Shown here piece after piece: positions 11,813 to 55,451 of a DNA stretch of 55,451 nt (its first letter is position 1; each line of letters starts with the position of its first letter). The stretch covers positions 1 to 55,451 of the forward strand of contig JADZEY010000021.1 in the NCBI GenBank assembly GCA_020850315.1, given 5' to 3'. The DNA is from Armatimonadota bacterium (lineage in GTDB: Bacteria > Bacteroidota > Ignavibacteria > OLB7). The notes beneath the pieces are model-generated. The model saw only the letters and a program-made list of their open reading frames with translations. It had not been told where the DNA came from and searched no databases. The position numbers were made by a program, and so were the translations under genes.

Positions 11813-11818
11813 GCACAA

Positions 11819-11934
11819 CTCATCAAGAACGACCGAGGGATCAGGCCCGATGACGTCGTAGCAACCGGTTCAGCCGAAAGGATTGAACGACAAGGTGCTA
11901 AATCCTGCCTGGCAACAAACCCAGGGGCGATGAG
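11819..11934 (+). promoter_or_regulatory. SAM-I (S-box) riboswitch
   Basis: This leader RNA has the S-box core. CTCATC at 11819-11824 pairs with GATGAG at 11929-11934 as P1. Between them lie the conserved GACCGAGGGATCAGGCCC, GCAACC and AAGGTGCTAAATCC segments in the usual order. S-adenosylmethionine binding to the aptamer normally promotes transcription termination. A terminator hairpin follows at 12014-12048, and metX and hom lie downstream, which fits methionine-pathway control. Confidence 0.93.
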
Positions 11935-12013
11935 GGCAGATCATTACTCACGACTGTCGGCCAGCTGATTCCGCACACCCGTGCCGAACCAGCACCGCAG
12001 CAGAAGCATGAAG

Positions 12014-47254: not shown

Positions 47255-48793
47255 CTACTGGCAGCGCAGCTGGCGTTGTTGCTGAAATTTCTGGAACTCA
47301 GTCTCGGCACTATCCGCTTCCGATTGCTGGCCTGCACTACGCAATGCTGCGGCCAACATCTGGTGTGCCCCAATGGCATCGCTGAACCGCTCCGCGCCAA
47401 TCTGTTGGTACAGGGCAATCGCACGCTGCAGATGATCTGCCGCAAGGGTTGGGCGGGACGTGGCTTGATAGAGTTCGGCAAAATGGACAAGAAGCAAGGC
47501 AACAGCGGGGTTGTCGGGATCGCCAAGCGTGCGGGCAAAGGCAAGTGCTTCCCCCAACACCTTCTCAGCTTCATCATACCGTTGCTGCGCGGTGCGCAAC
47601 CGCCCCAATTCATCCAGCGCGCCCACGGTGGTGAAGCTCCCCTCTGGATACAGCCGCCGAAGCATTGCAACGGCTGGGGTTATCAAGGTATCGGCATCGG
47701 CAAAGCGGTTCTGTTGCCGTGCAATTTTTGCCGACAGCACCAGCCCCCCCGCAATTTCTGGGTGATCGTGTTCGGCAGCGTACAGGGTGCGGCGCATTGC
47801 CAGCGCGGTGTCGGCAAGCCGTTGGGCCATGGCCAAATCCCCTTCGGCAATATGGATGCTGGCCAACTGCATCAACGATGCAGCAGTAGCGGGGTGCGTC
47901 GCGGGAAAAAGTTTGCGGCGGATTCGCAACGCTTCCTGGGCTAGGGGGAACGCACGGTTGGTGCAGCCCCCCCGCTCCCAAGCCATCCCGCGCATCGCCA
48001 CGGTTGCGGCCAGCAACGGGCGTTCCACCCCCAATCGGTTCAGCATGGCAACAGCACTATCCAAGTAGTTGCTGGCACTTTGGAAATTCCCTTGCTCCAA
48101 CTGCAAGGATCCGATATTCAGCAACCCGGTGGCAAGGTCTTCATGGTCTCCCTTGTACATCCGCCATTTCATCGCCAGTGCCTCGCGGTACAGGGTGTCG
48201 GCTTCGCGGTAGCGGCCCATGGCTTTCAGCAGCAACGCAAAGTTGTTCATGCCGCCAGCAAGCTCGGGGTCATCGGCGGTGTAGATACCACGTTTTAGCA
48301 GCAATGCCTTCCGGTACAAGCTCTCGGCCTCGTTCAATCGCCCCTGCAACCGGACGGCGCGCGCAAGGTAATCGGTAACATCGGCAACGGCAGTGTCGCC
48401 CGGGGGATACAATGCCACGGTCATGGCCAGTGATTGGCGCAGTGCCTGCTCGGCTTCCTCCACTTTCCCTTGATTCAGCCCAAGCCGGCCAACCTCACGC
48501 AAGGCAAAAGCAAGGTCGCGGTGGCTATCGCCAACGATTGATTCGCGGATTTTTTGCACAGCGATTTTGGCAATCACCAGCGCGCTATCGCGGCGGGCTT
48601 GGGGGTAGCGTTGGGCTTGCTTCAGCAGGCTATCCACAGCAAGGGAATCGGCAGGGTTGCGGTAGCTTCCGTTGCTGGGTGCGTGGGTTCGCAGCACGCT
48701 AAGGCTAAACAACAACGGTGCCGAACAGAACACCATAATGCCGCACGAAAGCAGCAGTATGGTTTTGGCAGTGTGGAAGGTTGCGGCAATCAT
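47255..48793 (-). CDS. Tetratricopeptide-repeat protein
   Basis: This 512-residue exported or membrane-anchored protein has an N-terminal hydrophobic segment (ILLLSCGIMVFCSAPLLFSL) and about nine or ten TPR units of the kinesin-light-chain type, about 42 residues each. Examples are GLNQGKVEEAEQALRQSLAM, LQGRLNEAESLYRKALLLKR and AMGRYREADTLYREALAMKW. It probably acts as a protein-binding scaffold in the periplasm. It lies 17 nt after the beta-propeller gene and 31 nt before the haem-binding gene. Confidence 0.9.
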   Translation of the reverse strand: MIAATFHTAKTILLLSCGIMVFCSAPLLFSLSVLRTHAPSNGSYRNPADSLAVDSLLKQAQRYPQARRDSALVIAKIAVQKIRESIVGDSHRDLAFALREVGRLGLNQGKVEEAEQALRQSLAMTVALYPPGDTAVADVTDYLARAVRLQGRLNEAESLYRKALLLKRGIYTADDPELAGGMNNFALLLKAMGRYREADTLYREALAMKWRMYKGDHEDLATGLLNIGSLQLEQGNFQSASNYLDSAVAMLNRLGVERPLLAATVAMRGMAWERGGCTNRAFPLAQEALRIRRKLFPATHPATAASLMQLASIHIAEGDLAMAQRLADTALAMRRTLYAAEHDHPEIAGGLVLSAKIARQQNRFADADTLITPAVAMLRRLYPEGSFTTVGALDELGRLRTAQQRYDEAEKVLGEALAFARTLGDPDNPAVALLLVHFAELYQATSRPTLAADHLQRAIALYQQIGAERFSDAIGAHQMLAAALRSAGQQSEADSAETEFQKFQQQRQLRCQ

Positions 48794-48810: not shown

Positions 48811-49830
48811 TTATCCCCAGAAGAAGCAGAAGCGTTTGGGAAGCTCAATCCTTCCGCTCCCACATTTCACTGCTGACCCCAACGTAATCTTGTAGTTCTT
48901 GGTGAGTTGGAAGGTTTGCACAGTGCTGGATTTCATGTTCGTGAAAACATACCATCCGGGTTTTCCTGGCCAGGCCAGCACCGCGCTTGGCATAGCAACG
49001 TCTTCGGTGCGGAACACCAATTCGCCAGTATTGGAATTAATGACATCCAGCGCGCTTAACCCTTCGAACGTTGCAAGCACAATGCTATCGTTAACGGCCT
49101 CAAATCCGTGGTACGTATTTTCCAGAACATCGGTGGCTGTTCCGGGCAATGGTGTTTGAATAAACCGGACAAATTTCCCGGTCTCCGTCTGGTACATAAA
49201 CATCCCCGAAACCCAATTTGCTCCACAGTAGAAATAGCGATCGGACGAGCTTCCAGCAAGGCCACGGGGGATATATTTAGTAGAAACGAACCGCACAACT
49301 TTACGGGTTTGCAGGTCAATCACCGACACCCCAGGGTTGGTTTTGCTGGTGGCATAAACGTAGCGTTCGGTTCCGCCAAGCCGAATATTGTGCGGCGATG
49401 AGACATCAGGGATGCGCTCTTCGATCTGCATAGATTCATAGCCAATAATCAGGATAGCATTGCCGTAGCGATTGGCCAGCATAAACCGCTTGCCGTCGGG
49501 GAACTCCATCATATGCTCCGCATACATTTTCCCCACGGTTAACTCACCTTTCAGTTGAAAGGTTTTAGTGTCGTAGAACTTCACCTTCTGATCCCCTTCC
49601 ACTGCCACAGCCAATGTTTTTTGATCGCCGGAAACGCTAGCGAAATATGGGCTTTCTCCAACGTGAATAACACGAATTTCCTTCATGGTGGTTAAATCCA
49701 CCAACGAGACCGACGAATCGGCCTGGTTCACCACAAAGACTTTTGTGGCAGGTTCTTTAGCCGTTGCAGTTAATGCCAGCAACAAGGCATAGGCGGGGAG
49801 CAGTGCAACACTGCGAAGTATTCTGTGCAT
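48811..49830 (-). CDS. Exported YVTN-type beta-propeller protein
   Basis: This is a 339-residue secreted seven-bladed beta-propeller. Met 49830 starts the signal MHRILRSVALLPAYALLLALTATA. Repeats such as VFVVNQADSSVSLVDLTTMK, VKFYDTKTFQLKGELTVG and GVSVIDLQTRKVVRF are typical YVTN/YncE blades. In Bacteroidota such propellers can act with TonB receptors as surface capture proteins (BtuG with BtuB for vitamin B12), which makes a link to the nearby receptor plausible but unproven. It is preceded by a structured RNA copy at 50022-50105. Confidence 0.86.
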   Translation of the reverse strand: MHRILRSVALLPAYALLLALTATAKEPATKVFVVNQADSSVSLVDLTTMKEIRVIHVGESPYFASVSGDQKTLAVAVEGDQKVKFYDTKTFQLKGELTVGKMYAEHMMEFPDGKRFMLANRYGNAILIIGYESMQIEERIPDVSSPHNIRLGGTERYVYATSKTNPGVSVIDLQTRKVVRFVSTKYIPRGLAGSSSDRYFYCGANWVSGMFMYQTETGKFVRFIQTPLPGTATDVLENTYHGFEAVNDSIVLATFEGLSALDVINSNTGELVFRTEDVAMPSAVLAWPGKPGWYVFTNMKSSTVQTFQLTKNYKITLGSAVKCGSGRIELPKRFCFFWG

Positions 49831-50021
49831 GGTGAATGATTGGTTAGTTAGTTGGGAATATCGGTTGTGATAACCGTTGTAAAATGTACCACCAAGCATC
49901 CGTACAGTGCCCTCACGATACCATAGCGCGACAAGGAGCGCTCATACAACCCGTTTTCAACCGAGAGCAAGGAACGGCACCACACAGATGCTGGTGGCAC
50001 ACAATGAGTTATTAGCTATTA

Positions 50022-50105
50022 TCGGCCCCCCCTTGGCAACTACTGTGCTGTCAGTTTATAATTACCAGCGGCCCAACCATTCCAGAATGAGCCATAGGGG
50101 GCCGA
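50022..50105 (-). promoter_or_regulatory. Structured leader RNA, copy A (three-way junction, unknown class)
   Basis: On the minus strand this folds as a three-way junction. P1 pairs TCGGCCCCCT (50105-50096) with GGGGGGGCCGA (50032-50022). P2 is GGCTC/GGGCC (50093-50089, 50074-50070), and its loop contains TTCTGGAATGGTT. P3 is GGTAAT/GTTGCC (50066-50061, 50040-50035), and its loop contains CTGACAGCACAG. It starts 21 nt after the beta-helix stop and lies about 190 nt before the beta-propeller gene. Copy B at 54151-54230 has the same fold and loops. It matches none of the riboswitch classes I can recall. Confidence 0.68.
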
Positions 50106-50126
50106 CAATATTCTCCCCTCTTCAAC

Positions 50127-51263
50127 CTATTTATCTCGTTTAGCAGTAAAGCACCCTAAGTCTGGATCATAAGCGGGATTGCCTTTACCCATTGCTGGCG
50201 ACCCAGCTTGAAGGTGCACGTCATTGTCATCCGTTAAAGCATTCATATCAGGGTTGAATTTCATGAACTGAGGATCAACCTGAATAAGGTCTGTAGATTG
50301 TGGCCTGCCATAACCATCTGCTGGGTAGAAAAACTGTTGTAAGGAATCAATGGTTGTATAGAACAAGTTATTCCCATACGAACAGTTCGCCGTATCAGCT
50401 TTTTTAGTGATATTCAAACCTAATCTTGTATTTACCATAATGTTATTGTACACCTTTGCACGGGAGAACAGATCAATTTTAATACCAGCACCTGGCCGCG
50501 ACGAATTCTTATGACCCGAGTTGATAATGGTGTTATTATAAATTTCAACATCAGTTTGTGGGAACAGCACAGTTGAGCCAGTTTCAACGCGGATACATTG
50601 ATCCGTACAACTCCAGATATAGTTGTACGCTATTTTCCCTTTGAACCCTGACTTGAAATTCGGCCCAGAACCTTCAACTTCACCATTCCATAAAAACTGA
50701 TTACGTAGGATGTGACCTTTACCACCATACAGCATAAAGCCATCATCCTTTGGCTTATAAAGAATGCAATCTTCCATATAAAATTCGCTAGTATTTGCAG
50801 CGTTTGAGAAATAATAGACGGCTGGCCGGGGCCTTCCATCAGGGCGGATTCCGCCAGCATAATCTATACGACACCATTTCAGGCTGACAACGCTTGGTGA
50901 ATCGCAAAGGATACCTGCCCAAGAACCCGTTTTTTGCCTTGCTGCATCCGGTCCCATGTAGATCATAGCATCTTTAGACCCATGTGCAAAAAGTGCGCCT
51001 TTGATAATCAGCGCGTGATTGCTCATATCAATCAGCTTTGCACCTGGTTCAATCGTTAAAGTATCCCCCTTTAACACTGTTGCATCAGCAGCAAGGTAAT
51101 AGGTTTTATTAGCCTTCATTATTCCCTTAATATTCCCCTTTACGGTATCGCTGATCGTTTGCGGATCTGGGGTATTAGGGTCTGTTGTGGTGTCATCACC
51201 GCAAGCAATTATCCCTGCGGCAAGCAGGAATGCAGCTATAAGCAAGCGTAGCTGTTGTTTCAT
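50127..51263 (-). CDS. Right-handed beta-helix lipoprotein
   Basis: This 378-residue lipoprotein begins at Met 51263, with AGGAA upstream. Its lipobox is AAGIIAC, giving a lipidated cysteine near residue 21. A short Asp/Thr/Pro linker follows. The body has parallel beta-helix repeats like those of NosD and pectate-lyase-like surface proteins (ALIIKGALFAHGSKD, FYMEDCILYKPKDDGFML, VEIYNNTIINSG, AKVYNNIMVNTRLG). No catalytic motif is evident. It follows the TonB receptor by 91 nt and shares its AT-richer composition, so a receptor-linked surface role is likely. Confidence 0.84.
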   Translation of the reverse strand: MKQQLRLLIAAFLLAAGIIACGDDTTTDPNTPDPQTISDTVKGNIKGIMKANKTYYLAADATVLKGDTLTIEPGAKLIDMSNHALIIKGALFAHGSKDAMIYMGPDAARQKTGSWAGILCDSPSVVSLKWCRIDYAGGIRPDGRPRPAVYYFSNAANTSEFYMEDCILYKPKDDGFMLYGGKGHILRNQFLWNGEVEGSGPNFKSGFKGKIAYNYIWSCTDQCIRVETGSTVLFPQTDVEIYNNTIINSGHKNSSRPGAGIKIDLFSRAKVYNNIMVNTRLGLNITKKADTANCSYGNNLFYTTIDSLQQFFYPADGYGRPQSTDLIQVDPQFMKFNPDMNALTDDNDVHLQAGSPAMGKGNPAYDPDLGCFTAKRDK

Positions 51264-51354
51264 TTGGCAGTTCCTGTAAATGGTTAAACTGGTTGGTTTA
51301 GGTCTGGATAGGCGATCATGTTGCACTTTTAGCTCAAGCATCTGCATAGGGTAT

Positions 51355-54030
51355 CTACAGTAATTTCCACTGCAAGCCTATGGCTGCTGTGCTTCCGAAA
51401 TGTTCTTCTTCAATCAATCCACCTTTTTGAGTGATTATGCGGTATGGCATGTTTAATAGGTTGTTCAATCGTAAAAACAACGACAAGCCGGAACCGATTG
51501 ATTTATTGCATGAAAAATCTAATGCCGCATAATCATCAAGCAAGTGATTCTGATCTTTGTAAAGGGATACGCTATGAATACGTTGTCCCGTATAGACAAG
51601 GCTTAGCTGGGCAAATAATCCCAATTCCGCAGGGTTAAACGATATGGCTATGTTTCCACCATGCTCTGATTGGCCTTGTAATGCACGGGTTTCTGGAACA
51701 AGTAATGTTTGCCCAGCAGCACGATCGAATAAGACCTTATCAGCAGTAATCGTGGAATACGCCCACGTGTAGAAAGCTTGTACACCAAGACTGTACGGGA
51801 GCATTACGCCAACAACAAACTCCCCACCATATACCATTGCCGAACCAAAATTGCGAGGCTGAATGCTAGGCAGTGAAGGATTTCTAATATCTACAGCACG
51901 CTCAATCGGATCATCAATCTTCTTGAAAAATGCACCAACTGAAAATTGCTCGATAAGTGAAGGGTAAAGCTCATAGCGAATATCTACATTTGTTGATTGT
52001 GACCGCTTAAGATCAGGGTTCCCTAATTCACGATTATCTTCCCCTTGTGAATTATATGGAACAAGATCATAAAAGTTTGGACGACTAATCGTGCGCCCCA
52101 ATGAGAAGCGCAAATATGATTCTGGAGATAGAGTATAACGTAAATGGAGGCTAGGTAAAATATCCGTGTAGCTATTCGATGCTGTTACTTGCTGAACTTG
52201 CGTGATATCAAAGGTTGAGTAACTCCCCGATGTGGTTTCAGTACGAACCCCAGCAATAGCCTTCCATAGGCCACTTTCCCATGTACCCATCAAATACCCC
52301 GCGTATAATTCTTCCTCACATTGGTAATTATTATTACCATATTCTGGTGTTCCACCAGTGTTTAATACTTCCCATTGTAGGTCATCAACATTAGTAAATC
52401 TGGGTAGGTTACCCGCAGAATCAGTTATAGGCAACAGCCTATATTCATTTTGTGCATTTGCTCGTTTTTTTGTTTTTAACAGTGTTCCAGCATTAATAGT
52501 TATTCCGCTATTTTTCCATTTTTTCCATGATATATCTAATCCACCGATGATGTCACGATCTTCATTATGCTGCCAATCATGGACAATAGCATAGAATACT
52601 GGCTGCGATGCAACTACATTCTCACGCAGCTCAGATACTGTGGCTAATTCTGCACGGTCAGGCTTAAATTGCCGTGCCTCCAACCACCCTGCTCGCCAAC
52701 CCAATGATAAATCACCGAATGCATGCTTACCTGACACTACTGTATTGGCTAATGTATAGGTTTGAACCACAGACCGAATACAATTATACAATACAGGCTG
52801 ATAGACATAATTTGAATCTCCTAATATCCGAGTCTCGACATTACGCCGAACAAAACCATTAAATGATATATTCACTTCATTTTCTTTATTGAAAATATAA
52901 TCTACTTTGGTGTTAAGTCCCCATTTTGTTTTATCGTGACTATGAAACCTATGTTGACGGCGAATAAGGTATTCATTATTATCAGCATCAATAGCATCAT
53001 AATTACGAACCGCTTGAGAGTAGCGATATGTTTGCTGAACACTTCCCGCCATAATCACCCCTAAATGCCCATCTAAAAAACGATTCCCCAAAGTAATGTC
53101 TCCAAATATGTCTGGCGAAGCAGGTTTTGAGGACATCTTAAAATAATTTCGTGGGAAATCATTAACCTGTGCTTGATATGTAGTTCCGAATCGCTTCAGA
53201 GGATCTTCAAAAATTGAGTCGGTAGGAAACGAAGTGAAGTTTGTGTTGATAAGCTGGGCACTATATCCAGTACCAATTTTTGCCTGTGCAATAAGCGTGT
53301 CTGGTGCAGTTTTCATTACCAGGTTCACCGAACCACCGATTGCATCACCCTCCATGTCAGGGGTTAAGGATTTTGCGACCTCAATCCTCTGTAGAAGATC
53401 AGAAGGTAGAAAATCCATCTGCAGAACGCGAGTATTTGTGCTTGGAGATGGAGCGCGAACCCCGTCAACAAGGATGCTGTTGTAGCGGGATTCCAATCCA
53501 CGAACGATGGCATCGCGTACCTCACCACGAACCCGTGTTACCGATACCCCAGGAATCCGTTGCATTGATTCGGCTGTGGAGGGGTCGGGATAACGCGCTA
53601 TTTCCTCGGCACTTAGATTATTAACAACGGATGCTGCATTCTTTTCGGCAGTGCGTGCATACCCCATCGTCTCCTTATTGGCACGTGCGGTTACCACTAC
53701 CCCTGTGGAATTTGCCACCCGTTGGAGCAAAGAAATTGACACCTCAGTTTGATGGCTAGGCTGAACTACAACCGAAACACGCCCTGTATCATATCCAATA
53801 GATGTGATAATCAGATTATAATTTCCTGTTTGCAGATTCTGAATAATGAATGCACCAGCATCATTGGAGATTGCTCCAGATTTTGTCTCTTGCACCTTGA
53901 TTGTCACACCTTCAATTGGCTTCCCCACATCATCCCTTATCACTCCTTTAATACTCCCTGTCTGTTGTGAAAAAGCAAAGCAAGGAATAAGAAACAACAT
54001 GAGGATAATACTTGCTCTGTCAAATTTCAT
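51355..54030 (-). CDS. TonB-dependent receptor
   Basis: This is an 891-residue outer-membrane receptor. Met 54030 starts the signal peptide MKFDRASIILMLFLIPCFAF, though two Met codons upstream (54075, 54084) are possible and none has a Shine-Dalgarno sequence. A carboxypeptidase-regulatory-like domain (GSIKGVIRDDVGKPIEGVTI) covers about 25-105. The plug shows SMQRIPGVSVTRVRGEVRDAIVRGLESRYNSILVDGV. The barrel ends in IGLQWKLL. A structured RNA (copy B) lies 120 nt upstream and a beta-helix lipoprotein gene follows. The substrate is unknown. Confidence 0.94.
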   Translation of the reverse strand: MKFDRASIILMLFLIPCFAFSQQTGSIKGVIRDDVGKPIEGVTIKVQETKSGAISNDAGAFIIQNLQTGNYNLIITSIGYDTGRVSVVVQPSHQTEVSISLLQRVANSTGVVVTARANKETMGYARTAEKNAASVVNNLSAEEIARYPDPSTAESMQRIPGVSVTRVRGEVRDAIVRGLESRYNSILVDGVRAPSPSTNTRVLQMDFLPSDLLQRIEVAKSLTPDMEGDAIGGSVNLVMKTAPDTLIAQAKIGTGYSAQLINTNFTSFPTDSIFEDPLKRFGTTYQAQVNDFPRNYFKMSSKPASPDIFGDITLGNRFLDGHLGVIMAGSVQQTYRYSQAVRNYDAIDADNNEYLIRRQHRFHSHDKTKWGLNTKVDYIFNKENEVNISFNGFVRRNVETRILGDSNYVYQPVLYNCIRSVVQTYTLANTVVSGKHAFGDLSLGWRAGWLEARQFKPDRAELATVSELRENVVASQPVFYAIVHDWQHNEDRDIIGGLDISWKKWKNSGITINAGTLLKTKKRANAQNEYRLLPITDSAGNLPRFTNVDDLQWEVLNTGGTPEYGNNNYQCEEELYAGYLMGTWESGLWKAIAGVRTETTSGSYSTFDITQVQQVTASNSYTDILPSLHLRYTLSPESYLRFSLGRTISRPNFYDLVPYNSQGEDNRELGNPDLKRSQSTNVDIRYELYPSLIEQFSVGAFFKKIDDPIERAVDIRNPSLPSIQPRNFGSAMVYGGEFVVGVMLPYSLGVQAFYTWAYSTITADKVLFDRAAGQTLLVPETRALQGQSEHGGNIAISFNPAELGLFAQLSLVYTGQRIHSVSLYKDQNHLLDDYAALDFSCNKSIGSGLSLFLRLNNLLNMPYRIITQKGGLIEEEHFGSTAAIGLQWKLL

Positions 54031-54104
54031 AGGACAGTACATTTGCATTGTAAGGATATTAGTCTGTTTTTTCATGGGTATCATGTTGGGAGAAATAGAG
54101 ACCT

Positions 54105-54130: not shown

Positions 54131-54150
54131 CTTGCGATGAATAGACACCA

Positions 54151-54230
54151 CCAGCCCCCCTGATAATCGTGCGCTGTCAAAACAATTATCGGTAGGTAAC
54201 CATTTCCTGAAAAAACCTACAGGAGGCCGA
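54151..54230 (-). promoter_or_regulatory. Structured leader RNA, copy B (three-way junction, unknown class)
   Basis: On the minus strand P1 pairs CGGCCTCCT (54229-54221) with the AGGGGGGCTG side (54161-54152, one bulged G). P2 is GTAGGT/ACCTAC (54220-54215, 54197-54192), with loop TTTTTCAGGAAATGGTT. P3 is GATAAT/ATTATC (54190-54185, 54167-54162), with loop TGTTTTGACAGCGCACG. The stems of P2 and P3 differ in sequence from copy A yet still pair, while TTCnGGAA(A)TGGTT and TGACAGCRCA are kept. It lies upstream of the TonB receptor. Confidence 0.7.
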
Positions 54231-54255
54231 TGGCGTTGTTCTATCTTCTTCGTGC

Positions 54256-55071
54256 TTATTTTGCTGAAGTAAAAGATTTTGCCATCACCACTTCATGTTC
54301 GGTTCGGTAGGTTTGCTTGGTTTCTTGAATGAGCTTCCAAGCCACATCATTTTTTAATACTGCTCGTACTTTCTGTTTTATAATCTCTCGGTTTCCCATT
54401 GCTGCTGCATCCTTGTATTCAAACAACAAATAAGCATCCCACGGCGCTCCGGTAGCATGGTGGTTTAGGAAAATTCCGTAGCTGTTCAGCACTCCCTCTT
54501 TTAGCCATCCATCAAATTGTGGTATCCCATAGGCAGCGATATAGGTCGTGTAGCTGGCACGGTCAACCCATTGATAGGGGATCATTACATAAATCGCATT
54601 TTTCTGGTCGCCGCGTTTCCCTTGGAACCACTTGCGATCGCTAAAGTATGTTGTGGCTGGGGTGATAGTTTTCAGTAATTCAGGCATTAACCCACCGGGG
54701 TTTGTTCGCTCAAGCTGACGCCAACGGTCGGTTTGCTCGTAGGTATCGAACTGCACAACCGCGCTCATATCCCAAGTATTCTCATCACAGATGGAATTAT
54801 AGACCAGAAGGTAGTCAGCAATAATTCCGCTTTTTTTATACTCCTCAAATTTCTTCACCCCTTCTTGCTCCATTCCCGTAATCATTGCTGGGCGATCGGC
54901 AGGTTTGCAGCGATAGGTGATAAAGATGTGGGTCATCCCAGGTTTGTTTTCTTGGGATAGCATTGGCGGTACGGCCAACGCGCCATGGATAAACATCAGT
55001 GCCAAGGCTGCCCAGAGCAAACGATGCTGGCTACTATTCTCCATCAGTATTTGTTGTTTGTTTTTTTTCAT
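54256..55071 (-). CDS. Exported protein with two alpha/beta-barrel-like halves, unknown function
   Basis: This 271-residue protein has an N-terminal signal or anchor (HRLLWAALALMFIHGALAV). Two related halves follow, each like a dimeric alpha/beta-barrel (NIPSNAP/ABM-like) module. The second (IYVMIPYQWVDRASYTTYIA, then PQFDGWLKEGVLNSYGIFLN, then YLLFEYKD) is closely similar to the gene immediately upstream at 55094-55451. Function is not recognised. The tandem pair stands directly before the structured RNA and TonB receptor gene and shares their AT-richer composition. Confidence 0.7.
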   Translation of the reverse strand: MKKNKQQILMENSSQHRLLWAALALMFIHGALAVPPMLSQENKPGMTHIFITYRCKPADRPAMITGMEQEGVKKFEEYKKSGIIADYLLVYNSICDENTWDMSAVVQFDTYEQTDRWRQLERTNPGGLMPELLKTITPATTYFSDRKWFQGKRGDQKNAIYVMIPYQWVDRASYTTYIAAYGIPQFDGWLKEGVLNSYGIFLNHHATGAPWDAYLLFEYKDAAAMGNREIIKQKVRAVLKNDVAWKLIQETKQTYRTEHEVVMAKSFTSAK

Positions 55072-55093
55072 GGGTGTGAACTATGTTTTTTGC

Positions 55094-55451
55094 TTAGCGA
55101 GATGGAAGGATCACCCTTCCGCTTGCTACCTCATACTCATTTCGGAATTGCCCCGATATTTCGCGGAGCAGCTTCCAGCCTGCGTCGGTTTTTAGATTGT
55201 TTTCCGTTGCTGCACGGGCTGCGTTCCTTTCGGATAATCCGCGAACGCCGTCGTATTCCAATAACAGCAGAATATCCCAGGGCTTACCTGGATAGTGGTT
55301 ATTCAGCAAAATTGACCACGAACGGAGTGCCCCTTCTTTCATCCATCCATCGAACTGCGGAACCAAGACGCTGTTGACAAAATCAGTGTAGATAGCGCGA
55401 TCTGGATGCTCATACGGAATCACCAAATACAATGCTGATTTAGGGTCGCCA
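55094..55451 (-). CDS. Partial gene, tandem paralogue of the neighbouring exported protein
   Basis: The frame is open to the window edge, so the 5' end is missing; the visible 118 residues begin GDPKSALYLVIPYEHPDR. They align along their length with the C-terminal half of the product of 54256-55071 (PQFDGWMKEGALRSWSILLN against PQFDGWLKEGVLNSYGIFLN), showing a tandem duplication. It ends 22 nt before that gene. The function is unknown. The apparent start at 55432 is a TTG inside the domain and is not real. Confidence 0.75.
   Translation of the reverse strand, partial: GDPKSALYLVIPYEHPDRAIYTDFVNSVLVPQFDGWMKEGALRSWSILLNNHYPGKPWDILLLLEYDGVRGLSERNAARAATENNLKTDAGWKLLREISGQFRNEYEVASGRVILPSR

Follow-up and report, generated by a model that had tools for sequence, protein, structure and literature searches.

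A three-way-junction RNA, apparently undescribed, at the gene joints of a TonB receptor operon in one genus of Ignavibacteria

The window (the whole stretch of 55,451 nt that was analysed) carries toward its right end part of an iron-uptake-type operon, a run of minus-strand genes that includes a TonB-dependent receptor and a beta-propeller, with two copies of an RNA element, A and B, in the gaps between genes. In the order of transcription the features are as follows.

55094..55451, minus strand: 3' part of a P271 paralog; the gene runs on into contig C42, where it is preceded by a siderophore-type TonB receptor (TonB receptor 1)
54256..55071, minus strand: P271, a secreted orphan protein directly upstream of A
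54144..54237, minus strand: RNA element A
51355..54084, minus strand: TonB-dependent receptor (TonB receptor 2), starting at 54084, or at 54030 with a signal peptide directly N-terminal
50127..51347, minus strand: right-handed beta-helix protein (PF13229); P1 of B begins 16 nt past its stop codon
50015..50112, minus strand: RNA element B
48811..49830, minus strand: YVTN/YncE-like beta-propeller, likely start 49830; the sister ortholog follows a third copy of the element, C

The operon continues past the end of the window. The right end (55325-55451) overlaps the end of C42 (L171 17050-17176) by exactly 127 nt inside the P271-like gene, and judging from this sequence match the window's contig (C21) and C42 very probably adjoin each other in the genome. 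Read across this overlap, the joined contigs are transcribed in the order TonB receptor 1, P271 paralog, P271, A, TonB receptor 2, beta-helix protein, B, and YVTN propeller. In the sister species the order is TonB receptor 1, P271, C, propeller, and a protein with a haem-binding domain. Here, but not in the sister, a TPR gene (47255-48793) separates the propeller from the haem-binding-domain gene. TonB receptor 1 matches the siderophore receptor family TIGR01783 above cutoff, and its nearest solved structures are pyochelin and ferrichrome receptors. PQQ uptake, considered on account of the YncE-like propeller, was rejected, as TonB receptor 1 fits siderophore receptors far better than PqqU.

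P271 and its paralog (54256-55450; L175 9190-9930) are secreted and form a genus-only family of their own, with no match in Pfam, NCBIfam, or PDB. No homolog of P271 was found outside the genus among the 395 genomes searched, and its structure model was of low confidence (pLDDT 46) and was set aside. The sister ortholog is 89% identical and lies directly upstream of C.

TonB receptor 2 is missing at the matching joint in the sister. The genes for this receptor and the beta-helix protein have a GC content of 0.42-0.43 versus about 0.55-0.59, and by sequence comparison the pair may have been either gained here or lost in the sister. Similar receptor and beta-helix pairs recur in other genomes without the RNA, and they constitute a conserved pair in several families (L020-L029, L144-L152); no copy of the element was found at these related loci. 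Because related operons do without it, the narrowly spread element is dispensable for TonB and beta-helix genes as such. In one genome (G073) a metallophosphoesterase gene adjoins the pair, and several of these loci have a GTAAY...TTCGARAAT-like stretch upstream that may be a regulator site.

Elements A and B each fold independently into the same three-way junction, a Y-shaped structure in which P1 (15 bp) closes a P2 hairpin (6 bp) and a P3 hairpin (9 bp). The first-pass annotation had placed two stretches with a common fold at these sites on the minus strand, and both are present there. It located them correctly and drew them too short: with a P1 of 15 bp whose outer pairs covary too (CGCC/GGUG versus UAUU/AAUA), the real elements span 54144-54237 and 50015-50112. 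The parts are as follows.

54235-54221 with 54160-54146, minus strand: P1 of A
54220-54215 with 54197-54192, minus strand: P2 of A
54214-54198, minus strand: loop L2 of A, UUUUUCAGGAAAUGGUU
54190-54182 with 54170-54162, minus strand: P3 of A
54181-54171, minus strand: loop L3 of A, UUUGACAGCGC
50110-50096 with 50031-50017, minus strand: P1 of B
50094-50089 with 50074-50069, minus strand: P2 of B
50088-50075, minus strand: loop L2 of B, AUUCUGGAAUGGUU
50066-50058 with 50043-50035, minus strand: P3 of B
50057-50044, minus strand: loop L3 of B, AAACUGACAGCACA

The fold z scores are -4.93 for A and -5.65 for B (200 dinucleotide shuffles each, with 0 shuffles as good), and the opposite (plus) strands are weaker, at -0.96 and -3.09. 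Inspection by eye found no complement for pairing between L2 and L3. A and B have six to seven G-U pairs that would be C-A mismatches if read on the other strand. These pairs, and the better folding of the gene strand in A, B, and C, place the RNA on the same strand as the genes.

The evidence for selection comes from how the copies differ. A and B were aligned by hand, with N as a spacer, because MAFFT shifts P2 by one column; this alignment was guided by structure, and P2 and P3 were nevertheless predicted separately in A and in B. Among its 29 pairs none is broken; both partners differ in 11 and a single partner in 8, which agrees with the earlier claim that substitutions in the stems keep pairing. 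When the same sites are changed at random (200,000 draws), a mean of 17.6 and a maximum of 27 of the 29 pairs survive, and pairing falls to 31-69% when partners are slid by 1-3 columns. In this alignment the two copies differ at 30 of 58 stem positions and 5 of 29 unpaired positions; counted over 30 pairs, they differ at 31 of 60 and 5 of 27. With C included, two-sided changes are seen in 14 of 30 pairs, 1 of 90 cells is unpaired, and 98.9% of cells are paired versus 86.9% in shuffles; this covariation rests on few independent events, there being three copies of which A and C are orthologs. As for the loop motifs described at first pass, UUCnGGAA(A)UGGUU is present in 3/3 copies and so is GACAGCRC, while the U and A that had been given on either side of the latter vary. 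Taken from the sequences, the element is a structured RNA selected at the RNA level, in which compensatory changes keep the fold. Its stems have changed yet remain paired and its loops are almost fixed, which makes a functional, regulatory RNA very probable.

Two of the covariance searches were independent tests. A model of A alone (R1) detects B at 31.2 bits (E 1.3e-6), with nothing else notable in the window. A model of A and B (R2), in which C took no part, was run over 294 genomes of the class and gave one new match, C (G001:C69:21947-22036; 66.4 bits, E 3e-12), in the one other genome that represents the genus in the search set. Model matches to A itself score 77.6 and 81.8 bits, but R2 and a further model, R3, were built with A, and the independent tests are R1 to B and R2 to C only. 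A lack of further copies in relatives had been named in advance as refuting, and C shows that this does not apply. In C the P1 extension is 17 bp long and paired throughout, P2 and P3 recur, and both loop motifs are present; it folds with z -6.56 versus -4.71 on the opposite strand. Its P1 is very stable (-50 kcal/mol), and its lone unpaired position is a U-U at the tip of P2. A and C differ at 9 of 60 stem positions, with 2 pairs altered by double change. By sequence C groups with A, and the two are orthologs that occupy the same joint in two species.

Beyond this genus the searches returned nothing convincing. No copy stood out among 294 class and 267 phylum genomes searched by covariance model (overlapping draws); the three weak matches of R3 in the 267 phylum genomes (E 0.3-1 per genome) were taken as chance. 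The pattern GGAAN{0,1}TGGTTN{12,34}TGACAGC gave only chance matches in 119 relatives apart from A and B. A stricter pattern, which demanded TGACAGC and would let C-like copies (AGACAGC) escape, hit 87 places in about 85,000 species, none with paired P1, P2, and P3. A wider pattern found nothing in 395 phylum genomes or viral contigs, and plasmids and phages gave no match. The genome search with R1 missed even B, and its first look was therefore coarse; because of this and because the models come from three sequences, distant copies could escape. Two copies were found in the host genome. No Rfam 15 family matches at gathering score, and up to E 10 there are only unrelated sub-threshold chance matches, so the first-pass view that the fold matches none of the riboswitch classes it listed stands. 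We found no description of such an element in the part of the literature covered. Elsewhere in the window, a SAM-I riboswitch lies at 11817-11936 on the plus strand (70.4 bits). Overall, A, B, and C are a real structured RNA family, apparently undescribed and found in a single genus.

All three copies are intercistronic and on the same strand as the next gene. P1 begins 20, 16, and 17 nt past the preceding stop codon in A, B, and C, respectively, and ends 61 (or 115), 186, and 67 nt ahead of the next start. Part of the 186-nt gap after B is a palindrome, D (119 nt), and minus D the distance is 67 nt, equal to that in C. Palindrome D (49884-50002, minus strand) consists of two small hairpins closed by a stem of 27 bp (z -3.94) and was absent in the sister and in all loci fetched; it may be an insertion of MITE type or another structured element. 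Relative to P271, A holds the place of C, and relative to the propeller, B does. Homology to the sister ends no more than one or two bases from the end of A, and the flanks are unconserved between the species. No copy lies ahead of TonB receptor 1, the first gene of the operon. None of the three copies is followed by a terminator-like tail or U tract, as an intrinsic terminator would have, and with the whole gap folded to the next start no structure competing with P1 was seen near the start codons.

We consider it somewhat probable that A, B, and C are one undescribed cis-acting RNA that tunes cistrons within a single operon, via loops that bind a protein or ligand. From strand and spacing, the element would be transcribed with the genes in a polycistronic mRNA. 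The long P1 would close two hairpins that present the conserved loops UUCnGGAA(A)UGGUU and GACAGCRC at their tips, and the two loops together could be the surface that a protein or small ligand recognises. Occupancy may then alter mRNA processing, stability, or translation at that joint, such that the following cistron (TonB receptor 2 and the beta-helix protein, or the propeller) would be expressed at a level differing from that of the preceding genes. Against this reading, the RNA is missing from related TonB and beta-helix operons, the covariation comes from three copies with two of them orthologous, and no expression platform or terminator was found.

The missing platform also weighs on a strict riboswitch, in which the loops would be the aptamer for a nutrient of the operon (a siderophore, haem, or a metal) and binding would switch the next cistron. 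The three-way junction with its fixed loops and variable stems suits such an RNA, as do the siderophore-type receptor (TIGR01783) in the operon, the haem-binding-domain gene downstream, and the end of C 67 nt before the propeller start codon. However, the element is not at the operon head and was found in two species only; neither a terminator nor an alternative fold nor a masked start codon was seen, and with a P1 as stable as in C a switch based on P1 is difficult to envisage. We regard a strict riboswitch as rather unlikely. The first-pass annotation had proposed a riboswitch-like leader; what survives is a selected structured RNA, lacking an Rfam match, that precedes a TonB receptor and also a propeller, but it is intercistronic and not an operon leader. 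Equally doubtful, in our estimate, is a riboswitch-like class of intra-operon sensor that would have its sensing bases in two terminal loops, sit between cistrons, and travel with added uptake genes so that every added module would bring control of its own.

Alternatively, the element could be a passive intercistronic or 3' UTR structure, acting as an exonuclease block, an RNase III cut site, or a 3' UTR precursor that yields a trans-acting small RNA. The start of P1 16-20 nt past stop codons, the high stability of every copy, and the lack of flank conservation between the two species are all consistent with this. Such a role has no need of fixed loop sequences, yet the loops are the most conserved part, and a small RNA precursor would more likely have kept an intrinsic terminator, of which none was seen. 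We think a passive structure unlikely.

The arrangement of copies also raises a DNA-level explanation, in which the element would be an attC-like, structure-recognised site or mobile-element remnant and TonB receptor 2, the beta-helix gene, and B would be a cassette inserted beside A. One copy is present at the sister's joint, whereas here a direct copy stands on either side of the two low-GC genes (0.42-0.43 versus about 0.55-0.59), and homology to the sister breaks off at the end of A. However, gain of genes with their own regulatory element explains the insert equally well, only two copies were found in the genome, and no recombinase or integrase is present among the annotated neighbour genes. 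The architecture is not a single hairpin, and the G-U pairs and strand bias indicate RNA, which together make an attC-like site or mobile-element remnant very improbable. A mobile repeat (MITE or REP) was rejected because the host genome has two copies at 52% stem divergence instead of many near-identical ones; the concern raised at first pass, of a repeat with conserved stems, does not apply, since the sliding test and the three-copy pair counts indicate that the stems covary.

If the element is regulatory, it represents a new RNA family in an unusual place, the joints between cistrons, and with an unusual pattern of invariant tips on covarying stems. It would also show how an uptake operon can acquire a receptor module and, with it, a dedicated RNA control. 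Its reach is limited by the distribution found, a single genus, unless further copies exist in metagenomes.

Several known systems offer comparison. Integron attC sites keep structure while sequence varies, as A and B do, and copies of the element likewise flank a gene insert; A and B differ from them in having a three-way junction where attC has a single hairpin, in their fixed loops, in their number (two copies in the genome), and in that no integrase was seen nearby. Among metabolite riboswitches, those with a three-way junction (such as the purine and TPP classes) have a P1 that closes two hairpins, conserved loops, and covarying stems. A, B, and C share this plan and occur near transport genes. 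Unlike those riboswitches, they carry their conserved bases in terminal loops with a nearly bare junction, are intercistronic with no expression platform seen, and have no Rfam match to E 10. Compared with the orphan candidate RNAs listed in PMC2864571 and PMC8040213, which come from many genomes, A, B, and C come from two species and are set apart via Rfam 15 only. Like those RNAs, they were found by covariation, have no ligand or function assigned, and are restricted in distribution.
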